Below are positions 9,480-39,835 of a stretch of DNA of 39,835 bases, piece after piece. The stretch spans positions 1 to 39,835 of the forward strand of contig JAODNA010000074.1 of assembly GCA_025465135.1 (NCBI GenBank), written 5' to 3'. The position numbers were made by a program, and so were the translations under genes. Position 1 is the first letter of the stretch; the number at the start of each line of letters is the position of its first letter. The stretch is from Frankiales bacterium (GTDB lineage Bacteria; Actinomycetota; Actinomycetes; Mycobacteriales; SCTD01). Below the pieces are notes generated by a model. The model had not been told where the DNA came from. It ran no database searches and saw only the letters and a list, made by a program, of their open reading frames with translations.

Positions 9480-9643
9480 CGTGTGCTCCCGGTGTGCGCC
9501 CCCGCACAGGCGATTGTGCAGGAAGGCTGTGACACCGGCGCGGAAGCGCCGATGAGCGTGACGGTGATTCCGCAGGAATCACAGCGGGCGTTGTGCCAGC
9601 GGCCGCTGCGGTGCGTGGAGACGATCGCCCAGGCGTGCTTCAC
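9476..9643 (-). CDS. Small zinc-ribbon-like protein
   Basis: The product is 55 aa from a GTG at 9643 that overlaps the upstream stop. It shows STHRSGRWHNARCDSCGITV, with a CDSC knuckle, and later PSCTIACAG, which may complete a zinc site. Longer in-frame readings upstream are not supported. The 15-bp palindrome GATTCC-N3-GGAATC falls on the codons for DSCGI, inside the knuckle. Confidence 0.6.
   Translation of the reverse strand: MKHAWAIVSTHRSGRWHNARCDSCGITVTLIGASAPVSQPSCTIACAGAHTGSTR
9565..9581. repeat. Dispersed palindrome, copy 1
   Basis: The sequence reads TGATTCCGCAGGAATCA. With one more base on each side the arms GTGATTCC/GGAATCAC are 8 bp around GCA. It is the same 15-mer core (other orientation) as at 24633 and differs by one base from that at 37007. 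It lies in a coding sequence. See the findings for a possible ParB-site role. Confidence 0.75.
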
Positions 9644-11042: not shown

Positions 11043-12056
11043 TCAGAAGCGAGCCGCCACGACTGACGATGGGTGACAGGCCGGGCACGGGCGCAGCGGC
11101 CGGTCCTCGTCGTCGACGACGTACCGCGCTCCCCCGCGGTGCCCATCGCAGGCACCGCATGGCGGCGGAATGGTCGGCGACGGCGACCGTTCCACGTCGC
11201 CGTCGACGTCGCGCTGAGCGCTGGTGTAACCGGTGCTGTAACCGGCCGAGCCTGCGGGAATGGTCGCCCCGGCCGACCGTTTCGGAAGCAGGAGCTCCCA
11301 GGGCGTGATCCACGCTCGAGCCGAGCGTGGCGCGCCCTTGGCGAGCACGCAGGCGATGGCCTCCTGGACGAGCGCCTCGAGGCCGCAGAGCTCGAGCTGG
11401 GCGGCGATCATCGCGGCCTGTGGTGGCTCGAGGTCCCAGGGCACCGCGGCGGCACGGCGGTCGACGGCGTGCTTCAGCTCGAGCAGCCGCTTGTCCACAG
11501 CCGGAGCCGTCGATCTGCGCGCCGGCTTCGCGCGGCTAGCGCGCAGCGCTGCCGGTTCTGGTTCTGGGTCAGGTTCTGGGTAGGGGGGCGTAGCTCTCCC
11601 CCTTTCCTCCTCCTTTCCTCCCCCTTTACGCCCCGCTTTCTTGGGCAGATAGGGGGCGCTACGTCCCCTATCTGGAAGAGTGTCCACATCGTCGTCCACA
11701 GCGGGCTCGGTGTCCCCGTCGCTCGCGGTGGAGCGCTTGCGCTGGCTCGGTGGCCAGGCCAGGTCCCGCACGACGTCAGGGTCTCTGCCCATGACGACGG
11801 CGTACTCGTTGTGCCTTCCTCTGCCGGGCACGGTGGGCCGGCGTACGAGCAGGAGGCCCGCGGCCTCGAGCTCCTTGATGACGTCGCTGACGGTCTTCTT
11901 GTCGCACCGGGCAAGCTCGGCGATGCGGGGCCGGCCCGGGAACGCGCGGACGCCCTGGTCGTTGGCGGCGTCGGCGATCGCCCACAGGACGCACAGCTGC
12001 GTCCTGTCGGTGATCGGGCTCTCGTAGAGGACCCAGGTCGTGCAGCGCTGGCTCAC
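11043..12056 (-). CDS. Putative replication initiator with winged-helix domain
   Basis: The product is 337 aa from a GTG at 12056 with a strong AGGAGGT site. The N-terminal ~95 residues form a winged-helix DNA-binding domain (TDRTQLCVLWAIADAANDQG, PRIAELARCDKKTVSDVIKE, LEAAGLLLVRRP), as in phage initiator and replisome-organiser proteins. A low-complexity linker (residues ~100-180, Lys/Glu/Pro-rich) leads to a helical C-terminal domain (PQAAMIAAQLELCGLEALVQEAI) and a last Cys pair set (CGACDG, PCPACHP). The layout matches lambda O-type initiators, where the origin lies in the linker-coding DNA. The candidate origin is found exactly there. Confidence 0.75.
   Translation of the reverse strand: MSQRCTTWVLYESPITDRTQLCVLWAIADAANDQGVRAFPGRPRIAELARCDKKTVSDVIKELEAAGLLLVRRPTVPGRGRHNEYAVVMGRDPDVVRDLAWPPSQRKRSTASDGDTEPAVDDDVDTLPDRGRSAPYLPKKAGRKGGGKEEERGRATPPYPEPDPEPEPAALRASRAKPARRSTAPAVDKRLLELKHAVDRRAAAVPWDLEPPQAAMIAAQLELCGLEALVQEAIACVLAKGAPRSARAWITPWELLLPKRSAGATIPAGSAGYSTGYTSAQRDVDGDVERSPSPTIPPPCGACDGHRGGARYVVDDEDRPLRPCPACHPSSVVAARF
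11491..11700. other. Candidate replication origin inside the initiator gene
   Basis: This stretch has DnaA-box-like 9-mers at 11491-11499 (TTGTCCACA, an exact actinobacterial consensus), 11680-11688 (GTGTCCACA) and 11692-11700 (TCGTCCACA). It also has a 34-nt pyrimidine-only tract at 11594-11627 with two copies of CCTTTCCTCC. A perfect 10-bp inverted repeat CAGATAGGGG/CCCCTATCTG spans 11646-11674. Two copies of a TAGGGGG-type motif occur at 11581 and 11650. The cluster is in the linker-coding part of the gene. Confidence 0.5.
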
Positions 12057-18071: not shown

Positions 18072-18346
18072 CGCGAGCCCATCCGGTACTGGCCAGGCCA
18101 CTGGTCATCGCGCACCAGGCCGAGCGGTCCGGTGGCCGGGCCGCGGCGGGGGGCTGCACGCGGCCCGGCGACCGAGGGAGCCGGGACCAAGGTGCAACGT
18201 ACGGGGTCAGGGACTCGCTCGGCGGTAGCGCGCGCGCTGGTCCTTCGTGCGATCGCAGCCCGCCGCTCGCTCACCAGCACCGCGGCGAACAGGCCGACCG
18301 CCCACAGCAGCGTCCAGCCGCCGATGATCAGCCGCTCGGCGGTCAT
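18068..18346 (-). CDS. Small membrane protein with basic tail
   Basis: The product is 92 aa from ATG 18346 (ATGA overlap with the ParB-like stop). One N-terminal membrane segment (LIIGGWTLLWAVGLFAAVLV) is followed by an Arg-rich cytoplasmic tail (SERRAAIARRTSARATAERV). Such a protein could anchor something at the membrane next to DNA. Neighbourhood with the ParB-like protein is suggestive but nothing more. Confidence 0.55.
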   Translation of the reverse strand: MTAERLIIGGWTLLWAVGLFAAVLVSERRAAIARRTSARATAERVPDPVRCTLVPAPSVAGPRAAPRRGPATGPLGLVRDDQWPGQYRMGSR

Positions 18347-19701
18347 GGCTGCAGTCCGATCGTCGACTGCCAGGCGTCGAAGGCATCCCGTGGGAACGGG
18401 TGGCTCTCGTGCAGCCGGACGACGTAGGCGGCGAGCAGCCGGAACTTGCCGAGCTGCCCGTGAGCCGCGAGGTAGGCGTCGCCGAGCTCGTCCTCGTTGG
18501 CGTCGACGCCTACCAGCGCCAGGGTCGGCTCGTCGAGGAGGTCGGCGTTGAGCTTGAGGTCCTCGAACAGGCCCTCGATGACGAGGTCCATGAGGGCTGC
18601 GTTGCCCTTCACGCTGGGCTTCGCCGACAGGGCCGCGGTCAGCGTTGCGAGGCGCTCCGCAGCCAGGCGCTCCTGCTCGAGGCGCGCGGCCTCGGCCTTC
18701 TCGCGCAGGCGCTCCTCAGCCAGGCGGTTCTTCTTCTGGGCGGCGGTCTCCGTCGCCGGCTCAGCGAAGCTGCCGCCCTTCGGCGCCGGCGGAGGCTCGG
18801 ACTTGTGGCTGTTCGGGCGGAGGCAAACCTCGATGAGCTTGGGCTTGCCGTAGGAGTGCACGCCGTACGCGTGGCAGTCGAGCTTGCGGTGCTTCGCCGG
18901 CGTCGTGCGCGACTTCAACGGGTACTCGGAGATGATGTTCGAGTAGCTGACCTCCTCCATCCACCTGTCGCCCCGGGTCTCGACCAGGTCCTTGAGCTCG
19001 CTGATCTGCGTACGACGGTCGATCCGGTCGACGGCGCTGGCGACCATCACCTCGACGCTCTGCCGCATCCCGCGGCGCCGGTCGGCGATGACCCTGCTGA
19101 GCTCTTCCGGGGCGTCGGCGATCGGGCGCAGCGCGCGGGCCTCTTCGATCGTCACGACGTTCTCGAGGACCGCGTCGACGACCGCGGCCGGGAGCTCGAG
19201 CAGGCTCAGGCGCTTGTTCACGTAGCTCTGGCTCTTCGTGACGAGCCGGGCGATGTCGCGCTGGGAGTGGCCGAGGTCGGCGAGCTGCTTGAAGTCCGCT
19301 GCCTCCTGCAGCGGGGTGAGGTCCTCGCGCTGCAGGTTTGCCACGATGCGGGCGGCGATCGCCTTCTCGTCGACGAGGTCCTCGCGGACGTTGCACCACG
19401 CCGCTGCATGGCCCAACTGCAGCAGCGCCTTGCGGCGCCGGTGGCCGGACTGGATGACGAACCGCTCCCCCGCCGGCGTGACGGTGAGCGGCTCGAGCAA
19501 ACCGAGCTCGTCGATCGACTCGGCCAGGTCGGCGACGTCGCCGACCGGCTCGCCGCCGCGGTTGGCCGGGTTGTCGTCGAGGAGTGCCAGGGCGAGCAGC
19601 TGCACCGACGGTGAGGACCCAGCTCCGGCCGTCGGTGCAGCCGGCTTGCGGGGTGATTCCGCTGTCATCACGGCGCCGAGGTCCTCGGCGAGCGTCGTCA
19701 T
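18343..19701 (-). CDS. ParB-like partition/nuclease-domain protein
   Basis: The product is 452 aa from ATG 19701. Residues ~33-130 form a ParB N-terminal (ParB/Srx-like) domain: LLALALLDDNPANRGG, ADLAESIDELGLLEPLTV, then SGHRRRKALLQLGH, the form of the CTP-binding Arg patch, and NLQREDLTPLQEA. Residues ~145-165 are a helix-turn-helix of the KorB/ParB type (GHSQRDIARLVTKSQSYVNK). The second half has a coiled coil (AEERLREKAEAARLEQERLA) and an unrecognised C-terminal domain. No parA gene is visible. Known family roles are DNA partition or gene regulation; binding to the GATTCC palindromes is an inference. Confidence 0.85.
   Translation of the reverse strand: MTTLAEDLGAVMTAESPRKPAAPTAGAGSSPSVQLLALALLDDNPANRGGEPVGDVADLAESIDELGLLEPLTVTPAGERFVIQSGHRRRKALLQLGHAAAWCNVREDLVDEKAIAARIVANLQREDLTPLQEAADFKQLADLGHSQRDIARLVTKSQSYVNKRLSLLELPAAVVDAVLENVVTIEEARALRPIADAPEELSRVIADRRRGMRQSVEVMVASAVDRIDRRTQISELKDLVETRGDRWMEEVSYSNIISEYPLKSRTTPAKHRKLDCHAYGVHSYGKPKLIEVCLRPNSHKSEPPPAPKGGSFAEPATETAAQKKNRLAEERLREKAEAARLEQERLAAERLATLTAALSAKPSVKGNAALMDLVIEGLFEDLKLNADLLDEPTLALVGVDANEDELGDAYLAAHGQLGKFRLLAAYVVRLHESHPFPRDAFDAWQSTIGLQP
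19654..19670. repeat. Degenerate copy of the dispersed palindrome, in parB-like gene
   Basis: The sequence TGATTCCGCTGTCATCA matches 14 of 17 positions of TGATTCCGCAGGAATCA. It is in the coding start of the ParB-like gene, about 35 bp after its ATG. The first half-site TGATTCCGC is exact and the second half is degenerate. It could be a weak autoregulatory site, or chance. Confidence 0.35.
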
Positions 19702-20033
19702 GCCGTCACCGTCATCAGCCGGGCGACGTTGCGGAGCAGTCGTACGACGTCGGCCTGGCCGATGCCGGGCCGGTCCTGCCAGGCCACGAGGTCGGTGAGC
19801 TTGGGGTTGCCGACGCCGAGGAACCGTTCGACCTCGTAGCGGGCGAAGAAGGCGTCCTGGTTGTGGCCGTCGGCCGCGGCGTTGATCGCCTCGGCGACGC
19901 ACAGCCGGCCGCGGTCGTCGCGGGACTGGTACTTGGTCCAGCCCTGGGTCTCGAGGATCCGGGCCGCGGTGAGCAGGGTCGCCCGGATCCCGGCGACCGT
20001 CGGGACGGGGGCGAGCGGCGCGGTGGTGCTCAT
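19698..20033 (-). CDS. Hypothetical protein of the DUF6197-like type
   Basis: The product is 111 aa from ATG 20033. The layout IRATLLTAARILETQGWTKY then SRDDRGRLCVAEAINAAADG and a C-terminal LVAWQDRPGIGQADVVRLLR fits a small family found in actinobacteria and their phages, in which a Cys after RGR lies in a helical domain (the name DUF6197 is from memory). It overlaps both neighbours by 4 bp. Function is not known. Confidence 0.65.
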   Translation of the reverse strand: MSTTAPLAPVPTVAGIRATLLTAARILETQGWTKYQSRDDRGRLCVAEAINAAADGHNQDAFFARYEVERFLGVGNPKLTDLVAWQDRPGIGQADVVRLLRNVARLMTVTA

Positions 20034-20392
20034 GGCGCGAGCGCCGCGTCGAGGGCCCTCACGCCGTCGGTGGAGAAGTTGCCCAGGCCGCGGCGGATCG
20101 CGATCGCGTCGATGCCCGCCTGGAAGAACTCCCCGCCGAGGGAGATCGCGAAGTAGGTGAAGTCGAAGCCGTCCGTGCATCCGGACCACAGGGCCAGGGC
20201 GAGCTCGACCAGGCAGCGCTCGCCGGACGACCAGCCCTTGCCCAGCAGCCGGTCGACGTCGATCTCGCGCCGGCTGATGTCGACGTGCTGCAGGGCCCGG
20301 TCGCCGAGCGGCGCCAGGGCGACGAGCACCGAGTACAGCTCGGAGTCGCCTGTCGGCAGGAGCGGTGACACTCCCGCGGTGGTGGTGGTCAT
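20030..20392 (-). CDS. Hypothetical protein
   Basis: The product is 120 aa from ATG 20392 with AAGGGA upstream. It contains DSELYSVLVALAPLGDRALQ, then WSSGERCLVELALALWSGCT and a C-terminal ISLGGEFFQAGIDAIAIRRG. The pattern of the middle helix (GERCLVELALALW) occurs in small actinobacterial proteins linked to mobile elements. It is a soluble, acidic protein. It follows the hairpin at 20465, so it may be the first gene of a sub-operon. Confidence 0.65.
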   Translation of the reverse strand: MTTTTAGVSPLLPTGDSELYSVLVALAPLGDRALQHVDISRREIDVDRLLGKGWSSGERCLVELALALWSGCTDGFDFTYFAISLGGEFFQAGIDAIAIRRGLGNFSTDGVRALDAALAP

Positions 20393-20464
20393 GGTGCTGG
20401 TCCCTTCGGGTCGGATGGTGCGAGGCTTCGTGCTGGGCGTCGGGTTGGTCCCTTCCGCCCATGT

Positions 20465-20496
20465 GCGGCGCCCCCGGACCTGACCGGGGGCGCCGC
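20465..20496 (-). terminator. Stem-loop between switch genes and early genes
   Basis: There is a perfect 13-bp stem GCGGCGCCCCCGG (20465-20477) / CCGGGGGCGCCGC (20484-20496) with a 6-nt loop, but no U-tract. It separates the cro-xis-20502 cluster from the long early operon and may act as an attenuator. Confidence 0.65.
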
Positions 20497-20501
20497 ATGG
20501 C

Positions 20502-20720
20502 TCAGTCGGACCGCTCGAGCACGACGACGGCCATGGCGGTCACGCGGAGAAGCTCCGGGGTGAAGGAGTGGAGCGGCCGGCCCGTGGCCTCGATCAAGTA
20601 GCGGCAGCGCCTCGCACCGCCACAGACCTCGATCGTCGGGACCCACTGGTCTCGGTCGTAGAAGGTCTCCGCGGCGAGCTCGCCGGCGAGGTCGAGCACG
20701 TCGACGTACGCGGCCGTCAC
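20502..20720 (-). CDS. Small hypothetical protein
   Basis: The product is 72 aa from a GTG at 20720 that overlaps the excisionase stop (GTGA). It contains DLAGELAAETFYDRDQWVPT then IEVCGGARRCRYLIEATGRP and a C-terminal strand (VTAMAVVVLERSD). Two cysteines are four residues apart from a basic group. No family is recognised. It lies directly downstream of the putative excisionase. Confidence 0.6.
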   Translation of the reverse strand: MTAAYVDVLDLAGELAAETFYDRDQWVPTIEVCGGARRCRYLIEATGRPLHSFTPELLRVTAMAVVVLERSD

Positions 20721-20992
20721 GACACGCGCCGGACGGCAGCCCGGCTGCCTGGCGTCTTGGCGCGCTTCAGCGCCAGGCCATCACGGATCAAAGGCTGGCG
20801 GAGCTCGGTGCGGCTGGCCTCGACGAAGGCGGCGACGTCGGCCGCGTCGAAACGAAGGGTCCGACTCCCCCACCGGATCCCACGGAGCTTCCCGGCCTGT
20901 ACGAGGTCGTAGACGACCTCCTTCGTGACGGCCAGGTGCTCGGCGACGGCATCAGGCGTCAGGAGGGCCTGGCCGAGGTCTGGGGCGGTCAT
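20717..20992 (-). CDS. Excisionase-like helix-turn-helix protein
   Basis: The product is 91 aa from ATG 20992 (ATGA overlap). Residues ~10-62 fit the MerR-like helix-turn-helix of the excisionase family: LTPDAVAEHLAVTKEVVYDL then VQAGKLRGIRWGSRTLRFDA and ADVAAFVEAS. In this family the recognition helix is followed by a wing with RxG...RF. It may be the recombination directionality factor for the integrase. It sits three genes from the integrase, across the switch. It could also be an early regulator only. Confidence 0.8.
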   Translation of the reverse strand: MTAPDLGQALLTPDAVAEHLAVTKEVVYDLVQAGKLRGIRWGSRTLRFDAADVAAFVEASRTELRQPLIRDGLALKRAKTPGSRAAVRRVS

Positions 20993-21216
20993 GCGGGCAG
21001 GACGGTCGGCCAGACGAAGAGGTCAGCGACCTCGACTTCCAGGGCGGCGGCAATGCGCAGACGAAGGTCGTCCCCAGCGCTGACAGCACCTCGCTCGATG
21101 AGGCTGAGGTGCTGCTGGGTCGTGCGCACCTTCTCGGCGAGGTCCTTCTGGGTCCAGCCCCGATCGCGTCGACGCCTGACGATCTCCTCGCCCCAGAGCC
21201 GAGTGGGTGTATCCAT
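20989..21216 (-). CDS. Cro-like XRE-family regulator
   Basis: The product is 75 aa. ATG 21216 is chosen because a minus-strand -35-like TTGACG sits at 21252-21247, at the right distance for a leaderless transcript beginning at this ATG. A longer GTG start would put the promoter inside the gene. The XRE helix-turn-helix is clear (EEIVRRRRDRGWTQKDLAEK, RTTQQHLSLIERGAVSAGDD, RLRIAAALEVEVADLF). It faces the repressor gene and would act as a Cro-type repressor of lysogeny. Confidence 0.8.
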   Translation of the reverse strand: MDTPTRLWGEEIVRRRRDRGWTQKDLAEKVRTTQQHLSLIERGAVSAGDDLRLRIAAALEVEVADLFVWPTVLPA

Positions 21217-21263
21217 GACGTGCACGTTGACACGTGGTCGCGTGTACGTCAACACTAGATGGC
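21217..21263. promoter_or_regulatory. Divergent switch promoters and operators
   Basis: Two -35-like boxes face each other in this 47-bp gap: TTGACA at 21227-21232 (plus strand) and TTGACG at 21252-21247 (minus strand). Both predict leaderless mRNAs that begin at or within a few bases of the start codons (21264 and 21216). Good -10 boxes are not seen. The outer half sites GTTGAC and GTCAAC (21226-21231, 21248-21253) are inverted, and CGTGTACG occurs twice (21241 and 21263), giving likely operator half sites. Confidence 0.6.
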
Positions 21264-21650
21264 GTGTACGCGTTAGACGGGTCGCCGTTGGTGTTCTTCC
21301 ATGAACACGTGTCTTTCGGTGATCTGCTGCGCTCCAAGCGGCAGCAACAGGGGCTCACCCAAGCCGAGCTGGCACTTGCGCTCGGCGTGCAGCAACAGGC
21401 CGTCGGCCGCTGGGAGCTCGACAAGGACCTGCCGCGACGAGAGACGATCCGCCTCATCGCCCATCGATTGAGCATGTCGGGCTCGGAGATCGCGGTCGCC
21501 CTGGGCTTCGTCGACGAGCATGAGGAGGGGCCCTCGCAGGAGTTCGTCCCACTGCCCCCAGGCATCCACCTGACGCCGCTGCAGCGAGCGGCGATCGACT
21601 CCGTGCTGAACGCGTTCCTCGAGAGCGCCACGATGAGCAACGTCGGATGA
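21264..21650 (+). CDS. XRE-family immunity repressor
   Basis: The product is 128 aa if the GTG at 21264 is used; GTGs at 21234, 21291 and 21309 are also in frame. I choose 21264 because of the promoter spacing. The helix-turn-helix occupies residues ~18-80 (FGDLLRSKRQQQGLTQAELA, LGVQQQAVGRWELDKDLPRR). The C-terminal ~45 residues are not a LexA-like protease domain, so it is not a self-cleaving repressor. The last part (HLTPLQRAAIDSVLNAFLES) may form a dimerisation helix. It is alone on the plus strand against the Cro-like gene, as in a lambda-type switch. Confidence 0.8.
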   Translation: MYALDGSPLVFFHEHVSFGDLLRSKRQQQGLTQAELALALGVQQQAVGRWELDKDLPRRETIRLIAHRLSMSGSEIAVALGFVDEHEEGPSQEFVPLPPGIHLTPLQRAAIDSVLNAFLESATMSNVG

Positions 21651-21665
21651 GGGTGCTGACCGATC

Positions 21666-22145
21666 ATGGCTGACCGCAAGTCGTTCGCAGAGATCCGCGC
21701 GGAGCAGGAAGCGAAGCGAGAAGCCAAGCGGGAAGCCAAAGCGGCAACGCCGGACGCCCAGGCGAAGGCCGAGCAGGCCGAGACGAAGGTCGCAGACGCG
21801 CAGACCAAGATCCTCGCCGCACGTGAGGCGGCGCGTGCAGCTACCCCCGTCGGCCAAGCCGAGGCCGCGCACGCCAGAGGCCAAGGGTTCTTCGAGGTCC
21901 AGCTTGAGGTGGCGACCTCGCAGAGGGACGTGACCATCGCCGGCAGCACTGACAAGAGCCGTACCAGCTCTCACGCCGGCACGCTCTCCTCAATCGAGGC
22001 AGTCGGCTGGCGGCTGGAGCACGTCGGCTACGTGTTCCAGGTCACCGGCGAGTCCTCCCGGGACAAGTTCGTCGCGTCGGGTCAGCAGGTCGCTGTGAGC
22101 GGCAAGACAGTCGGGATCTACCTGTTCCGCCGGCTTGGCGCCTGA
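21666..22145 (+). CDS. Coiled-coil protein between repressor and integrase
   Basis: The product is 159 aa. Residues 1-60 are a charged helix rich in Ala, Glu and Lys with repeats (AKREAKREAKAATPDAQAKA). The C-terminal half (LSSIEAVGWRLEHVGYVFQV, TGESSRDKFVASGQQVAVSG, KTVGIYLFRR) matches a small conserved domain I recall from actinobacteria and their phages, with no assigned function. It is cotranscribed with the repressor, so it is probably made in lysogens. A superinfection or host-fitness role is possible but unproven. Confidence 0.7.
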   Translation: MADRKSFAEIRAEQEAKREAKREAKAATPDAQAKAEQAETKVADAQTKILAAREAARAATPVGQAEAAHARGQGFFEVQLEVATSQRDVTIAGSTDKSRTSSHAGTLSSIEAVGWRLEHVGYVFQVTGESSRDKFVASGQQVAVSGKTVGIYLFRRLGA

Positions 22146-22148
22146 CCC

Positions 22149-23381
22149 GTGGCCAGCATCCGACGCCTGCCTCGCGATGATGACGAGCGCCGGGCTCATG
22201 CCGAGGACCCCGACGTTCCTCTCACCGGCCGATGGCAGGTCCGGTACCGGGACGTCGACAACAAGCAGCGCGGTGCCTCCTTCGCCACGAAGGACGAGGC
22301 CAAGCAGTACCGCGCGAAGGTCGAGTCCCAGCTGTACGACGGGGACTGGGTGGATCCGGCGTTCGGTGAGGCGACCGTCGGTGCCTGGCTGAAGCTGTGG
22401 AGCGAGTCGCGGATCCTCGCCCGTACGACGGCGGCCGCTGAGGAGTCGCTGCTGAAGAACCACGTCGTGCCGGCGTTCGGCAAGGTCCCGCTGAACCGTG
22501 TGACGAAGCTGCGAGTGCAGACCTGGGTCGCGTCGATGGAGAGGCAGGGCCTGTCCCCCGCGACGGTGAGCAAGGTCTACCGGCTCCTGGCCACGGCCCT
22601 GGCGGACGCCGTCGAGGAAGGGCTGCTGCGCCAATCTCCGTGCCGCAACATCGACCTGCCGGCGGCGTCCATCGATGAACGCGTCTTCCTCACCACCGAG
22701 CAGGTCGGCGTGGTCGTAGCCGAGCTCCCCCGCCGCTACCGCGCGCTGGTGCTCTTGGCGTACTTCAGCGGCCTCCGCTGGTCGGAGCTCGCTGGCCTGC
22801 GCGTGAAGCGCCTCGACATGCTCGGCCGCAAGCTCGAGGTCGCCGAGGTTGCCCAGGAAGCCCGCGGCTTCATCACGTTCGGCCCGCCGAAGTCGAAGGC
22901 TTCCCGGCGCGTGGTGACCCTGGGCCAGGGCGTCGTCGACGAACTCGCCCTTCACCTGGCCATGTACCCGGCCGGCCGCGAGGACCTGGTGTTCACCGCG
23001 GCCCGGGGCGGTGCGATGTCCCGGACGATCTTCGCCCGACGGGTACTCCGTCCCGCCGTGACCGGCGCCATGGTCCGGCTCTGGGCTGTCGACCAGGGCC
23101 TGCCCGTCAGTGCGGCCGGGACGAAGATCGAGCCGGAGCTGCTCGAGGCATGGGAGCGCGCCGGCTCCCCCCACCTGATGCCGTGGCCGACGTTCCACTC
23201 GTTCCGGCACTCCCACGTCGCGGCGCTCATCGCCGACGGCAACCCGATGAAGGCCATCCAGGCCCGGATCGGCCACGGCTCGATCAAGGTCACGATGGAC
23301 ACGTACGGCCACCTCGAGGAGAGCGTCGACGAGGACCTGCTCGCAGCCCTGGACCGCCGCGCATCCAGCCTCGGCCTGTAG
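22149..23381 (+). CDS. int: Tyrosine integrase
   Basis: The product is 410 aa from a GTG at 22149, 3 bp after the previous stop. It catalyses attP x attB recombination. The N-terminal arm-binding domain (GRWQVRYRDVDNKQRGASFA, EAKQYRAKVESQ) is followed by a core-binding domain (~75-165) and the catalytic domain. Catalytic residues are R210 (FSGLRWSE), a Lys near 248-250, H350 and R353 (HSFRHS), H376 (RIGHGS), and nucleophile Y386 (DTYGHL). The length is normal for phage integrases. attP lies 165 bp downstream in a tRNA-Val 3' end. Confidence 0.95.
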   Translation: MASIRRLPRDDDERRAHAEDPDVPLTGRWQVRYRDVDNKQRGASFATKDEAKQYRAKVESQLYDGDWVDPAFGEATVGAWLKLWSESRILARTTAAAEESLLKNHVVPAFGKVPLNRVTKLRVQTWVASMERQGLSPATVSKVYRLLATALADAVEEGLLRQSPCRNIDLPAASIDERVFLTTEQVGVVVAELPRRYRALVLLAYFSGLRWSELAGLRVKRLDMLGRKLEVAEVAQEARGFITFGPPKSKASRRVVTLGQGVVDELALHLAMYPAGREDLVFTAARGGAMSRTIFARRVLRPAVTGAMVRLWAVDQGLPVSAAGTKIEPELLEAWERAGSPHLMPWPTFHSFRHSHVAALIADGNPMKAIQARIGHGSIKVTMDTYGHLEESVDEDLLAALDRRASSLGL

Positions 23382-23486
23382 ACCGTCCTCTTCCGTCCGG
23401 CAGCCTGACAGGGGCCTCGCGCGCGCGAGCCCGTCTACTGAACCAAGGTAGAGGTCACGGCCTCGGCGGTCGACACCGCGAGCCCG

Positions 23487-23506
23487 TGTGGATGACGATG
23501 TGGATG
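23487..23506 (+). repeat. Left arm-type repeats of attP
   Basis: Two direct copies of TGTGGATG start at 23487 and 23499, 12 bp apart. They lie about 40 bp left of the tRNA-like core. A similar pair lies to the right. Flanking paired repeats in one orientation are what arm-type integrase sites look like. Confidence 0.6.
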
Positions 23507-23546
23507 CTGCGCAGGTTGGCCGCTCTGACCTGGCCTTTTCCTCCGC

Positions 23547-23592
23547 CCTGACACGGAAGAGGTCACAGGTTCAAGTCCTGTATCGCCCACCA
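23547..23592 (+). other. attP core: 3' half of tRNA-Val(GAC)
   Basis: The segment carries an anticodon loop CTGACAC (anticodon GAC), the 3' side of the anticodon stem GGAAG, the variable region, a complete T-arm (ACAGG TTCAAGT CCTGT), the acceptor strand ATCGCCC, A73 and CCA. The 5' half of the tRNA is missing. Phage integrases commonly use tRNA 3' ends as core sites, restoring the tRNA after integration. The attB is predicted in a host tRNA-Val(GAC) gene. Confidence 0.88.
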
Positions 23593-23661
23593 AGCAAGAC
23601 CCGGTTCACGCTCAAGCGGTGTGCCGACAGAGGGTCTATCCCGGTCGGTGTGCCGAGGCCT

Positions 23662-23680
23662 CGTGGATGGAATGTGGATG
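23662..23680 (+). repeat. Right arm-type repeats of attP
   Basis: CGTGGATG at 23662-23669 and TGTGGATG at 23673-23680 are spaced 11 bp. They are about 70 bp right of the core and match the pair at 23487-23506. The second copy overlaps the start of the small plus-strand gene at 23672. Confidence 0.6.
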
Positions 23681-23866
23681 GCAGGCGGTCGCTGGGTCTG
23701 GATCGAGGAGCCGACTCCGGTCGATCCGAGGGCCCGTCGTAAGCGCTGGACGACGGCCGACGAGGACGCCTGGCAGGCTCGACAGGACGCCGGCGAGCCC
23801 GAGCCGGTGCCGGTGGATCCGCGCAGCCGCAGGAAGCGACTACCCGGCGATCCGGGGGCCGGCTAG
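23672..23866 (+). CDS. Possible small basic protein after attP
   Basis: The product is 64 aa from ATG 23672 (an earlier ATG at 23621 would add 17 residues in a region of low coding quality). The sequence has an internal repeat: EPTPVDPRARRKRWTT and EPVPVDPRSRRKRLPG, about 34 residues apart. It is Arg/Lys/Pro-rich and unlike any family I know. It overlaps the next minus-strand gene tail to tail by 27 bp. Its start overlaps an arm-type repeat. Confidence 0.4.
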   Translation: MWMAGGRWVWIEEPTPVDPRARRKRWTTADEDAWQARQDAGEPEPVPVDPRSRRKRLPGDPGAG

Positions 23867-24067
23867 CCGGTCGGCGGCGTCCGCGAGCTCGCGCTGGCCC
23901 GGGCCGGCGAGCCAGACGTGGACGGCTTCGGCCGCGACCTCGGCGGGCGTGGTGCCGCGGCCGCGGAGGTGGGCCAGGACGGCGAGCCGTTCGCGGTCCT
24001 CGTCCTCGAGCACCACGATCACCGGTCGCACTCTGGCGGCCACTGCGCGTCCTCTCGTCGCTTGCAT
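23840..24067 (-). CDS. Small ribbon-helix-helix-like regulator
   Basis: The product is 75 aa from ATG 24067, which is preceded by a GTAC-CGTC-GTAC-type element. The sequence shows a beta strand (VRPVIVVLEDEDRERLAVLA), then HLRGRGTTPAEVAAEAVHVW and a last helix. The strand-helix-helix order resembles small RHH/CopG-like DNA-binding proteins, but the match is not strong. An autoregulator or antitoxin-like role is possible; no toxin partner is clear. Confidence 0.5.
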   Translation of the reverse strand: MQATRGRAVAARVRPVIVVLEDEDRERLAVLAHLRGRGTTPAEVAAEAVHVWLAGPGQRELADAADRLAGPRIAG

Positions 24068-24115
24068 GTACGACGGTACGCAGGAACCCCCGACATTCCG
24101 GGGACCTTTTCCTGC

Positions 24116-24132
24116 ATTCGCGAATCGCGATT
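24116..24132. promoter_or_regulatory. Overlapping palindromes in an AT-richer gap
   Basis: Two perfect 10-bp palindromes, ATTCGCGAAT (24116-24125) and AATCGCGATT (24123-24132), overlap by three bases. They sit in a lower-GC stretch between the terminator at 24165 and the RHH-like gene start at 24067. This could be an operator or promoter region for that gene. Confidence 0.45.
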
Positions 24133-24164
24133 CCTTGAAAACGCCCGAGGGCAAATGCAAGAAA

Positions 24165-24201
24165 CGCCCCGGCGCTGCCTGGTGAAGGCAGCGCCGGGGC
24201 G
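24165..24201 (-). terminator. Intrinsic terminator of the recombinase-Lsr2 transcript
   Basis: There is a perfect 15-bp stem (24165-24179 with 24187-24201) and a 7-nt loop. On the minus strand the stem is followed by TTTCTTGCATTT, a clear U-tract. It ends the minus-strand transcript that carries the second recombinase and the Lsr2-like gene. Confidence 0.88.
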
Positions 24202-24225
24202 CGTGGTGTGAAGCAGGGTGTGAAG

Positions 24226-24429
24226 TCAGCGGGTCTCGAGCTGGTCGCGGCTGGGCATCCCACGCTCGTAGCGGCGATGCGGCGGGCGGCCCTTGTTGAA
24301 GGCCTCGACGATCGTGTTGGGGACGTTGCCCTGGGCGTTGACCTGCAGGCCGCGGCCCTGTGCCCAGGATCGGACGTCGGCCATGGTGGGCGGGGGCTTG
24401 GTGGCGGTGGTTGTCGTCATGTTGACCAT
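24226..24429 (-). CDS. Truncated Lsr2-type DNA-binding domain protein
   Basis: The product is 67 aa from ATG 24429 (ATG 24420 is an alternative). The part MADVRSWAQGRGLQVNAQGN then VPNTIVEAFNKG matches the C-terminal DNA-binding domain of Lsr2, the actinobacterial xenogeneic silencer. The N-terminal dimerisation domain of Lsr2 (about 50 residues) is absent. The minor-groove triplet RGR of Lsr2 is replaced by QGN. It may be a DNA-binding fragment that competes with host Lsr2, or one that has lost normal binding. It follows the second recombinase gene by 11 bp. Confidence 0.75.
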   Translation of the reverse strand: MVNMTTTTATKPPPTMADVRSWAQGRGLQVNAQGNVPNTIVEAFNKGRPPHRRYERGMPSRDQLETR

Positions 24430-24440
24430 GATGCCCCCGC

Positions 24441-25334
24441 TCAGGCGTCGAGGAACGTCTGCAGGGCGTAGGTGGCGTGGTTGTCGAGGCGCTTGCGGCC
24501 GCGGTTGTAGCGCTGCGTCGTACGCGGGTCGGCGTGGCCGGCGCCGTCCTGGACGACGTGCAGCGGGACGCCCGCCTCGAGCGCGAGAGTCACGAACGTG
24601 TGCCGCAGGCTGTGGGGGCTGATCGGCTTGATGATTCCTGCGGAATCGACCAGCTGCTTGATGAGGCGCCACGCGCCGTAGCGGTCCAGGCCGATGAGCA
24701 GCTCGTCGTCGACGCGGCCCAGGGCGGTGACGGCGGCCGCGGTCCGGGGGGCGAGCGGCACCCGGGCGCGCTTGCCGCCCTTGCGCAGGACCTCGAGCAG
24801 GTGGTGGCCGCGGTCGTCGCTCAGGTCGTGCGCGCGGGCCCGGCAGGCCTCGCTCACTCGCAGGCCGTTGAGGGCCAGGAGGCAGACGAGGGCGTGCGCC
24901 TCGCGGCTGTGGGTGTTGGAACCTGCCAACAGCTGGCGGAGCTCGGCCGCGTCGAGGCCGAAGCGGGTGCTCTCGTCGCTGACCTTGGGCCGGCGGACGT
25001 GCGCGACGGGGCTCTTGGGCAGGACGCCTTCGATGACGAGGTAGGCGTAGAAGCCGCCGATCGCCGAGAGCTTCTGCGCGATGGTCGCCGGCGCGCGGCC
25101 GGCCTGCTCAAGTTCCCGGGCGAAGACCTGAACGTGCGCGCGCAGGACATCGAGAACCTGAACGTCGTTGCTCGAGCACCAGGTGCCCCACTGCTTGAGC
25201 GTCGTCTCGTAGGACTCCCGCGTGCGGCCGCTGTAGCCGGCCAGGAACGCCTGCGCGTAGAAGCCCGGGCCAGGGCCGGTGGGCTGCGACTGGACTGCGA
25301 CTTCGGCGCGCCCGATGAGTTCGACCTCGTACAT
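24441..25334 (-). CDS. Second tyrosine recombinase (Xer-like)
   Basis: The product is 297 aa. The N-terminal SAM-like core-binding domain spans residues ~25-105 (RESYETTLKQWGTWCSSNDV, APATIAQKLSAIGGFYAYLV). Catalytic residues are all visible: R159 (GLRVSEA), K188 or K185 (RKGGKRARVP), H241 and R244 (HSLRHT), H267 (GAGHADPRTT) and Y276 (TQRYNRG). The length of about 300 and lack of an arm-binding domain fit XerC/D-like or plasmid resolution enzymes, not a classic phage integrase. The gene lies between the Lsr2-like gene and two divergent small genes. Its target site is unknown. Confidence 0.93.
   Translation of the reverse strand: MYEVELIGRAEVAVQSQPTGPGPGFYAQAFLAGYSGRTRESYETTLKQWGTWCSSNDVQVLDVLRAHVQVFARELEQAGRAPATIAQKLSAIGGFYAYLVIEGVLPKSPVAHVRRPKVSDESTRFGLDAAELRQLLAGSNTHSREAHALVCLLALNGLRVSEACRARAHDLSDDRGHHLLEVLRKGGKRARVPLAPRTAAAVTALGRVDDELLIGLDRYGAWRLIKQLVDSAGIIKPISPHSLRHTFVTLALEAGVPLHVVQDGAGHADPRTTQRYNRGRKRLDNHATYALQTFLDA
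24632..24648. repeat. Dispersed palindrome, copy 2, inside recombinase 2
   Basis: The sequence TGATTCCTGCGGAATCG carries GATTCC-TGC-GGAATC. It is the reverse complement of the core at 9565-9581. It lies inside the second recombinase gene (codons for DSAGI). Confidence 0.75.
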
Positions 25335-29834: not shown

Positions 29835-30755
29835 CTAGAACTCCGTCGCGTTGTCGGCCGGTGCGGCGGCGCTGCCGGGGTCGGGGATGGACAGTGGTGC
29901 GACGTCGACCTGGGCCTGGGCGTAGATGGCGGTGACCTCGAGGTCGAGCGCGTCGCTCGCCGCTGCGGGCGTCCCTTGGTCGACCAGGGGTGCGAGCTCG
30001 GGGGAAGGCGCCGGCGGGAGGACCGTCGGCGGGATGCTCGGGGGGAGGTCCAGGGCATCGCTGAGCGCGGCAGGCGTTCCGGGGTCCGCGATGATCACGG
30101 CTTCCTCGACTGCCGCCTCGGGTGCTGGCGGCAGCTCGGCGAGCTCGAGATCGGTCGCGTCCCTGCTGGCCAGGTCGGTCCCGGCGTCAACGAGGGTCAC
30201 CTGGGGCACGCCCGGGGGCACAGCCGGCTCGGTGATGGCGGCGGTCTCGAGGTCGAGTGCGTCGCTCGCAACTGCGGGTGTCCCTGGGTCGATCAGGGGC
30301 GCGAGCTCAGGCGAAGGTGCCGGCGGCAGGACCGCCGGGAGGACTGGGAGGAGGTCGAGGGCATCGCTGGGCGCGACAGCTGCTCCGGTGTCGACGACGG
30401 TCGCGGCTTGCTCGACCGCCGGCAAGGCTGCCTGCGGCAGCTCGGCGAGCTCGAGGTCGGTCGCGTCCCGGCTGGCCGGTGCAGCCCCGGCGTCGACGAT
30501 CGTCACGGTGCACTTCGCAGCGACAGGAAGCAGGTCCGCGAGCACAGCGACCTCGAGGTCGACGGCGTCAGGAGCGACCGTGAAGGAGTAGCTGGTGACG
30601 GTTGCCGGCGTGGGCGTCGTGAACTCGTCGGGCTCGGTCGACAGCAGGTAGACAGCGTCGCCGTCGGCGACCAGGACGGGCTGCTTGCCGACCCAGTCGT
30701 AGAAGTTGCCGGACGGGAGCCCGCGCCCGCCGGGCGTCGTCTTGTGGAGTAGCAA
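29835..30755 (-). CDS. Repeat-rich tail-tip protein
   Basis: The product is 306 aa from a TTG at 30755 with AGGAG upstream. Residues ~1-60 form a short non-repetitive domain (TTPGGRGLPSGNFYDWVGKQ, PVLVADGDAVYLLS). The remainder is made of seven degenerate repeats of ~33 residues, each with a D-x-G...DA-x-DLE pattern. Repeats 1-3 and 4-6 match pairwise (for example two copies of LPPAPSPELAPL), so an ancestral block of three was duplicated. Similar shorter units occur at the start of the glycine-rich protein at 1428. It is likely a flexible virion spacer. Confidence 0.75.
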   Translation of the reverse strand: MLLHKTTPGGRGLPSGNFYDWVGKQPVLVADGDAVYLLSTEPDEFTTPTPATVTSYSFTVAPDAVDLEVAVLADLLPVAAKCTVTIVDAGAAPASRDATDLELAELPQAALPAVEQAATVVDTGAAVAPSDALDLLPVLPAVLPPAPSPELAPLIDPGTPAVASDALDLETAAITEPAVPPGVPQVTLVDAGTDLASRDATDLELAELPPAPEAAVEEAVIIADPGTPAALSDALDLPPSIPPTVLPPAPSPELAPLVDQGTPAAASDALDLEVTAIYAQAQVDVAPLSIPDPGSAAAPADNATEF

Positions 30756-37005: not shown

Positions 37006-37022
37006 CGATTCCGGCGGAATCA
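37006..37022. repeat. Dispersed palindrome, copy 3, intergenic
   Basis: The sequence CGATTCCGGCGGAATCA carries GATTCC-GGC-GGAATC, with a 3-nt centre that differs by one base from copies 1 and 2. Unlike the other two, it is in an intergenic gap, between the major tail protein and the tail chaperone. Confidence 0.75.
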
Positions 37023-39413: not shown

Positions 39414-39835
39414 GGGCCAACCTCGATCCGGGGTGTCTGGGTCACGTTGACCACGGGGTTGACGGTGATGGCGACGTCGCTGGGCCTGGCGCGGGTCGAC
39501 ACCGCGACGTCGACGAGGTCGATGGCGGCGGCGCGCAGCGCGGTGAGCCGGCCGAGCAGCGTTGTGGTGCCGGCGGTGTCGCCGGTTGCCTCGGCGTGGG
39601 TGGCGCGGCTGGAGACCGCGGCGTCGAGGTTGTCGAGCAGCCCGGCCCGGATCGCGGTGAGCCGGCCGAGCAGGCTGGTTGTGTCCGTCTGGACGCCGGC
39701 GACGGCGGCGCTCGAGGAGCGGCTGGAGACCGCGGCGTCGAGGTTGTCGAGCAGCCCGGCCCGGATCGCGGTGAGCCGGCCGAGCAGGCTGGTTGTGTCC
39801 GTCTGGACGCCGGCGACGGCGGCGCTCGAGGAGCG
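39410..39835 (-). CDS. Neck/fibre-like repeat protein, C-terminal part (from position 1)
   Basis: This is the 3' part of the gene that starts at 470. It holds the 114-bp tandem repeats, then a more diverged copy (GTTTLLGRLTALRAAAIDLV) and a unique C-terminus (AITVNPVVNVTQTPRIEVGP). The stop overlaps the connector's GTG start by 4 bp. Together with positions 1-470 the gene gives 282 aa when the 47-bp overlap is counted once. Copy number in the true genome may be higher or lower because the assembly ends inside the repeats. Confidence 0.75.
   Translation of the reverse strand, partial: RSSSAAVAGVQTDTTSLLGRLTAIRAGLLDNLDAAVSSRSSSAAVAGVQTDTTSLLGRLTAIRAGLLDNLDAAVSSRATHAEATGDTAGTTTLLGRLTALRAAAIDLVDVAVSTRARPSDVAITVNPVVNVTQTPRIEVGP
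39606..39835. repeat. 114-bp tandem repeats, right portion, with 47-bp terminal overlap
   Basis: One full copy spans 39606-39719 and a second 39720-39833. The last 47 bases (39789-39835) are identical to positions 1-47. Joining there gives three full copies across the junction. A diverged copy lies at about 39492-39605. Confidence 0.92.

Follow-up and report, generated by a model that had tools for sequence, protein, structure and literature searches.

A phage-encoded orphan ParB and its predicted parS-like sites, spaced round the genome of an actinobacterial siphophage

Contig JAODNA010000074.1 of a Frankiales bacterium (GenBank assembly GCA_025465135.1), referred to here as the window, is 39,835 bp long, forms an entire contig (C160) of a draft actinobacterial assembly of 3.66 Mb, and carries a phage with a parB-like gene, an integrase gene and a tRNA-type attachment site (attP). 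The question raised by this locus is what a partition protein does in such a phage. The original prediction read the interval 18343–25334, with its ParB-like protein, Xer-like recombinase, candidate DnaA-box origin and dispersed palindromes, as a kit for partition and multimer resolution that might maintain the phage as an episome, and it noted that no ParA was seen. A survey (PMC12704722) describes orphan ParBs as frequent among phages, with a function known for few.

The gene in question is the following.

18343–19701, minus strand: orphan ParB of 452 amino acids, with a ParB cytidine triphosphatase (CTPase) fold, a ParB helix-turn-helix (HTH) domain and a C-terminal coiled coil

The protein scored 88 bits against TIGR00180 (cut-off 58.45) and 47.3 bits against the Pfam domain HTH_ParB (cut-off 22.6), and the ParB_N domain alone was slightly under its cut-off (24.9 vs 26.3). 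The cytidine triphosphate (CTP) boxes GHRRRKA and NLQREDLTPLQEA are conserved, GHRRxxA and NxxRxDLTPxxEA being invariant across homologues, and the recognition helix is SQSYVNKR. By these features 18343–19701 encodes a true ParB, and CTP binding is predicted from the conserved boxes. The closest solved structures are those of ParB, Noc and KorB; an AlphaFold model was good for the HTH region only (mean predicted local distance difference test score 62), and its C-terminal part was not used. Although Noc (TIGR04285) was the top NCBIfam hit, the score of 92 falls below the cut-off of 315, and the Pfam KorB domain scored 18.8 (cut-off 22.3) in this ParB and 34 and 24.3 in relatives. A search for ParA (PF13614) gave no match on the phage contig, in agreement with the original prediction, and the host assembly encodes ParAs on contigs C72 and C170.

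The parB gene is located in an early lytic/replication operon, outside the lysogeny cassette, which points to the lytic phase. An orphan ParB is found in the same position in Gordonia, Arthrobacter and Bifidobacterium phages. In Bbif-1, parB adjoins ssb and an initiator-like gene, and a metagenomic phage (G202) has integrase and repressor genes followed by parB, an O-like initiator and a DnaC-like helicase loader, in that order.

Perfect inverted repeats in the window numbered 21, against 6.35 in shuffled sequences. In the palindrome scan the strongest recurring palindrome was the 15-bp GATTCCNNNGGAATC, present in three exact copies, and one degenerate copy was also seen.

9566–9580: parS-like site 1, intergenic; exact GATTCCNNNGGAATC (GTGATTCCGCAGGAATCAC when the flanks are included)
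24633–24647: parS-like site 2, within the Xer-like gene; exact match, GATTCCTGCGGAATC
37007–37021: parS-like site 3, intergenic in the tail operon; exact match, GATTCCGGCGGAATC
19655–19669: degenerate site close to the parB start, with 2 mismatches; in relatives an exact site is present inside parB

The Poisson tail for GATTCCNNNGGAATC is 1e-10 uncorrected, or ~3e-6 when corrected by hand for the words tried, and shuffles gave a mean of 0.0 copies at ≤1 mismatch. Round the circle the three sites are 12.3, 12.4 and 15.1 kb apart and are not clustered at the par locus. The claim of dispersed palindromes was thus borne out, except that only one of the three copies lies in 18343–25334. No copy of GATTCCNNNGGAATC was found elsewhere in the host assembly, and the chromosomal parS (TGTTTCACGTGAAACA) was not found in the phage within 3 mismatches.

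Outside the window, GATTCCNNNGGAATC was found among 253 fetched loci only in three ParB loci (L020, L070 and L075) and in one further locus (L153), the contig of which also encodes a ParB. The extended 19-mer GTGATTCCGNCGGAATCAC occurred in only 15 stretches of a 257-Gb genome collection, and in 3 of 299 genomes of the host order. It was found beside parB-parA (parBA) operons in Longimycelium, Nakamurella lactea, a Nakamurella metagenome-assembled genome (5 sites), Kineosporia (6 sites when the 15-mer is counted) and Motilibacter, and a contig of an Actinomycetales metagenome-assembled genome, the sixth actinobacterium, carries it with parB and parA at the contig ends. The variant TGAGTCCANTGGACTCA occurs three times around the parB-parA operon of a Dermacoccus plasmid. 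As genuine parB-parA operons have this palindrome at their flanks, GATTCCNNNGGAATC is almost certainly the loading site of the window ParB.

The site also tracks ParB among phages. A single-protein ParB query of IMG/VR returned nothing, and an alignment query worked. Among the IMG/VR matches listed, a strong ParB was found in 8 of 10 contigs treated as multi-site and 3 of 30 single-site contigs (P = 8e-5, or 0.002 without the model's own contigs), and the two ParB-negative contigs among those treated as multi-site are fragments of 24 kb and 15 kb. Besides the window there are at least 11 ParB-bearing phage contigs, all with 2–8 copies of the site (≤1 mismatch) spread along the genome. The sites are distributed more evenly than random placement would give (combined P = 0.00015 for seven genomes with ≥3 exact sites; P = 0.011 for the window alone), and of the 35 exact sites 17 fall between genes, where 5.1 would be expected (P = 2e-6). 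ParA was found in none of the 13 multi-site/ParB phage records, where contigs may be incomplete, so that a single absence is weak and the absence from all 13 is stronger. Among 62 ParB loci, the site was present in all 7 with a recognition helix of the SQxxxxKR type and in 2 of the 55 others (P = 7e-8), the pattern having been picked post hoc after some members had been seen.

The ParB family, the sites with their spacing, the association of these sites with parBA operons and with this clade of ParBs, and the absence of ParA are all observed; from them we infer how the protein may bind, slide and serve the phage. On balance it is somewhat probable that a ParA-free ParB clamp loads at spaced parS-like sites and that its role is to organise or regulate the phage chromosome as it replicates, not to partition an episome. 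It is established for ParB that the CTP-bound protein clamps onto DNA at parS and then slides. The early lytic operon would supply the orphan ParB as a CTP-dependent DNA clamp, which would load at palindromes of consensus GTGATTCCGNCGGAATCAC spaced roughly evenly round the genome, slide outward to cover most of it and act without a ParA of its own. In the SCP1 plasmid, ParB spreads 15–20 kb from parS (PMC13245405); a site spacing of 5–15 kb is close to this spreading range, and clamps could therefore reach nearly all of the genome. The output could be long-range transcription control, for which KorB uses CTP sliding in long-range repression (PMC11790492), anti-silencing, as for VirB (PMC10770331), or compaction of the replicating phage chromosome.

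Sites of parBA systems are grouped close to the operon. It is more tentatively proposed, as something that may equally have taken another course, that this phage group has turned parBA with clustered parS into ParA-free genome coverage, with 3–8 sites ~5–15 kb apart and the whole replicating chromosome clamped, which would organise it, control its expression or protect it. Most phage ParBs have 53–85 residues ahead of the CTPase box, against 110–127 in ParBs of parBA operons (two start sites are uncertain), in keeping with a putative loss of the ParA-facing N-terminus. The consensus ParA-binding motif (LFI)G(KR)G(LFI) is absent from the window ParB, and as the ParBs of parBA operons also fail the exact consensus, this does not discriminate.

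Several observations weigh against a ParB clamp acting at spaced sites. In the window, two of the three sites lack perfect flanks, and the copy in the window's own parB is degenerate. The protein itself is a long, poorly placed branch with ~30% identity to its nearest kin, and a tree of ParBs left the phage branches unresolved. The evenness test handles linear contigs as circles. Finally, Bowser, Kiko, Maja and Nyceirae, cultured Gordonia and Arthrobacter phages whose ParB occupies the same slot, showed no recurrent palindromes above shuffles, indicating that the site network is not general to phage orphan ParBs.

Partition could instead occur in trans, with a ParA of the host chromosome or of a co-resident parBA plasmid moving the phage ParB-parS complex in a non-integrated lysogen. 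The palindrome is the same as the parS of parB-parA operons, ParAs are available in the host assembly, the contig is circular with attP intact and attB empty, and SGI1 is known to hijack a plasmid parABS via parS-like sites (PMC10954446). However, most phage ParBs are without the N-terminal stretch that parBA ParBs carry before the CTPase box, the phage sites are dispersed rather than clustered, no further copy of the site is present in the assembly, and the operon containing parB is an early lytic one, making this unlikely. It is also improbable that ParB is a local regulator that represses or activates promoters near its sites, their spacing being incidental. Half of the sites are intergenic, KorB is among the closest solved structures, and KorB sliding does give long-range repression (PMC11790492), but the other half lie in genes, late structural genes included, and local control has no need of even spacing. 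An anti-plasmid device, with the ParB and parS copies of the phage titrating or displacing resident plasmids that have the same type of parS, would make use of a parS common to phages and parBA operons, and SGI1 expels its helper in this manner (PMC10954446); it is nevertheless very unlikely, given the rarity of the 19-mer in the host order and a dispersal over the phage that such a device would not need. Dispersed stoperators are known in Cluster A phages (PMC5559632), but that the palindromes are operators or stoperators of a phage repressor, co-occurring with ParB incidentally, is likewise very unlikely when they flank bacterial parB-parA operons and track the ParB recognition helix.

A ParA-free clamp at spaced sites has partial counterparts in known systems. 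Noc of Bacillus has dispersed binding sites and no ParA; like the phage protein it is a ParB relative with scattered palindromic sites, but it is a chromosomal protein, and the window ParB scores far under the Noc cut-off. KorB of plasmid RK2 resembles the proposed phage ParB as a CTP sliding clamp at several operators of one replicon. KorB pairs with IncC (a ParA) and KorA, whereas these partners are not evident in the phage. The parBA operons of Nakamurella, Kineosporia, Motilibacter, Longimycelium and the Dermacoccus plasmid share the ParB family and the palindrome (a variant in Dermacoccus) but have a ParA and sites clustered beside the operon, whereas the phages have genome-wide sites and no ParA. 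The orphan ParBs of phages and mobile elements covered in the survey (PMC12704722) are alike in their canonical ParB domains and CTP boxes, in being phage-encoded and in lacking parA; that survey concerns proteins and is not known to describe a network of sites in a genome, whereas here predicted cognate sites are spaced round the phage genome. Cluster A parABS prophages such as RedRock and Miko are likewise actinobacterial and temperate with ParB and parS. They are extrachromosomal, parABS replacing the integrase, and have a ParA and clustered direct-repeat parS (PMC7157519), whereas the phage studied here has its integrase and attP intact and is without ParA. For one orphan ParB clade, DNA sites and their genomic layout are now defined and a sister system with ParA and the same sites is at hand, making phage ParB function a directly testable question. 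If the proposal is true, it shows how a partition module can become a genome-wide organiser. In any case parB alone is poor ground for calling a phage plasmid-like, and partition plus multimer resolution, as first proposed, is not supported, with parB in an early lytic operon and the integrase and attP intact, unlike in parABS prophages.

The state of the sequenced DNA was examined from the contig ends and the attachment sites. Positions 1–47 and 39789–39835 are identical (a 47-bp overlap within a 114-bp repeat), and removal of the overlap gives a circle of ~39.79 kb. A 532-amino-acid open reading frame with 38-amino-acid repeats spans the junction, as does the gene order terminase, portal, protease, capsid, head-tail adaptor, tail and tape measure. 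Because of this overlap and the reading frame and head-tail gene order crossing the junction, C160 is a complete closed siphophage genome. The following integration features were found, as had been anticipated.

22149–23381, plus strand: lambda-type tyrosine integrase of 410 amino acids (PHROG 1, 1.3e-64), with an N-terminal SAM-like domain
23546–23590, plus strand: attP core, 45/45 bases identical to the 3' half of the host tRNA-Val(GAC) on contig C77
23487–23680, plus strand: arm-type repeats (T)GTGGATG at 23487, 23499, 23663 and 23673, with the attP core between them

The layout is that of a lambda-type attP, the core being identical to the host attB with four GTGGATG repeats distributed on both sides, and two copies of TGTGGATG within 250 bp occurred in 0 of 200 shuffles. 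The integrase is likely the user of this attP, and the features are best explained by a temperate phage that integrates at the tRNA-Val gene. Identity of 98–100% between attP and tRNA-Val is common among members of the host's family and drops outside it, which makes the host assignment sound to roughly the family level; the host is uncultured and represented by a draft genome only. On C77 the attB is empty, with tRNA-Val complete, tRNA-Gly and tRNA-Cys upstream and host-type genes adjoining. As the phage is a closed circle with attP intact and attB is empty in the same assembly, the sequenced phage DNA is not integrated; virion, lytic DNA and an episome all fit. Residues 299–341 of the integrase include an apparent Lsr2-type DNA-binding motif (LWAVDQGLPVSAAGTKIEPELLEAWERA) inserted in the catalytic domain, with weak matches to PF23359 (0.008) and PHROG 1223 (0.012).

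Two genes on the minus strand follow the attachment site.

24441–25334, minus strand: Xer-like tyrosine recombinase of 297 amino acids (Pfam Phage_integrase, 86 bits)
24226–24429, minus strand: protein of 67 amino acids consisting of an Lsr2 C-terminal domain only (PF23359, 5.5e-8), directly downstream of the Xer-like gene

The Xer-like protein is a recombinase, as predicted, with the catalytic residues R-K-HxxR-H-Y all intact, and is without an N-terminal arm-binding domain. It shares 43–46% identity with RadFad gp36 and Maja gp28 and 34–35% with Howe gp36, Kiko gp37 and Bowser gp37; the Bowser gp37/Howe gp36 family is the second integrase of double-integrase phages (PMC5559632, PMC4982277), and Maja pairs it with a serine integrase. 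Bowser, Howe and Utz have the same Xer-like second recombinase, and Bowser also encodes an orphan ParB at the corresponding place, but in phages of this type the ParB recognition helix differs and GATTCC sites were not found. In 12 of 15 isolate-genome proviruses the Xer-like gene is ≤2 kb from the provirus edge, though boundary callers may favour integrases, and in one genome (G051) it lies within a chromosomal stretch with no clear prophage.

XerC/XerD-dif multimer resolution is not supported, as the scores are below both equivalog cut-offs (133 vs 330 for XerD and 116 vs 335 for XerC) and the best match to the dif consensus in the phage had 11 mismatches, the shuffle level, so that no dif-like site was found. 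No convincing second attB for the enzyme was found in the host, and no attL/attR was found around the Xer-like genes of the three relatives searched. It is more likely that the protein is a second integration or recombination enzyme than a multimer resolvase. ParB is found without the Xer-like family in MagicMan, Nyceirae, Dogfish and Bbif-1, and the Xer-like family without ParB in Howe and RadFad; because each occurs without the other, the two genes are not one module, and the suggested combination of partition with multimer resolution is not supported. The 67-amino-acid Lsr2-domain protein is possibly an accessory factor or silencer antagonist.

A DnaA-box origin in 18343–25334 was likewise discounted. 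DnaA boxes are at chance level (5 seen, 4.5 expected), and the match at 23487 is an arm site rather than a DnaA box, as it is one of the four GTGGATG repeats flanking the attP core. The sole cluster (11491, 11682 and 11694) is inside another gene.

11043–12056, minus strand: lambda-O-like replication initiator (PHROG replication initiation O-like)

An iteron-like 11-bp repeat, CTCCCCCTTTC, occurs four times at 11596–11640 within this gene, between the DnaA boxes, and boxes and repeat together are likely the lytic origin.

Further observations concern ParB and the genes near parB. A C-H-A ... C ... H pattern at residues ~270–300, following the HTH, is common to the phage ParBs of this clade in L069, L070, L075 and the window; it is a possible metal-binding insert and is absent from the parBA ParB examined. 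The Gordonia genes adjoining parB (L015, 13717–14754; L016, 13968–15014; L063, 15962–17002; L067, 15651–16685) form one family resembling the DNA polymerase sliding clamp and carry conflicting annotations as FtsK, RusA or clamp. In IMG/VR contig G229, a Ku-like DNA-end-binding gene (L431, 5811–6662; PHROG 4873, 5e-23) is located slightly upstream of an orphan parB.

Elsewhere in the window, the immunity region was located between the parB and integrase genes.

20717–21650: immunity region, with divergent HTH regulators at 20717–20992 (minus strand), 20989–21216 (minus strand) and 21303–21650 (plus strand) around operator-like repeats at 21219–21270

The 114-bp (38-amino-acid) tandem repeat in the head-tail gene across the contig ends (39539–39835 plus 1–170) is probably the assembly cut point. 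A near-duplicate 306-bp tandem pair is present at 29925–30506 within a tail or fibre gene, and a phage tRNA-Met (CAT) was predicted by ARAGORN at 2563–2640 on the minus strand, amid the head genes.

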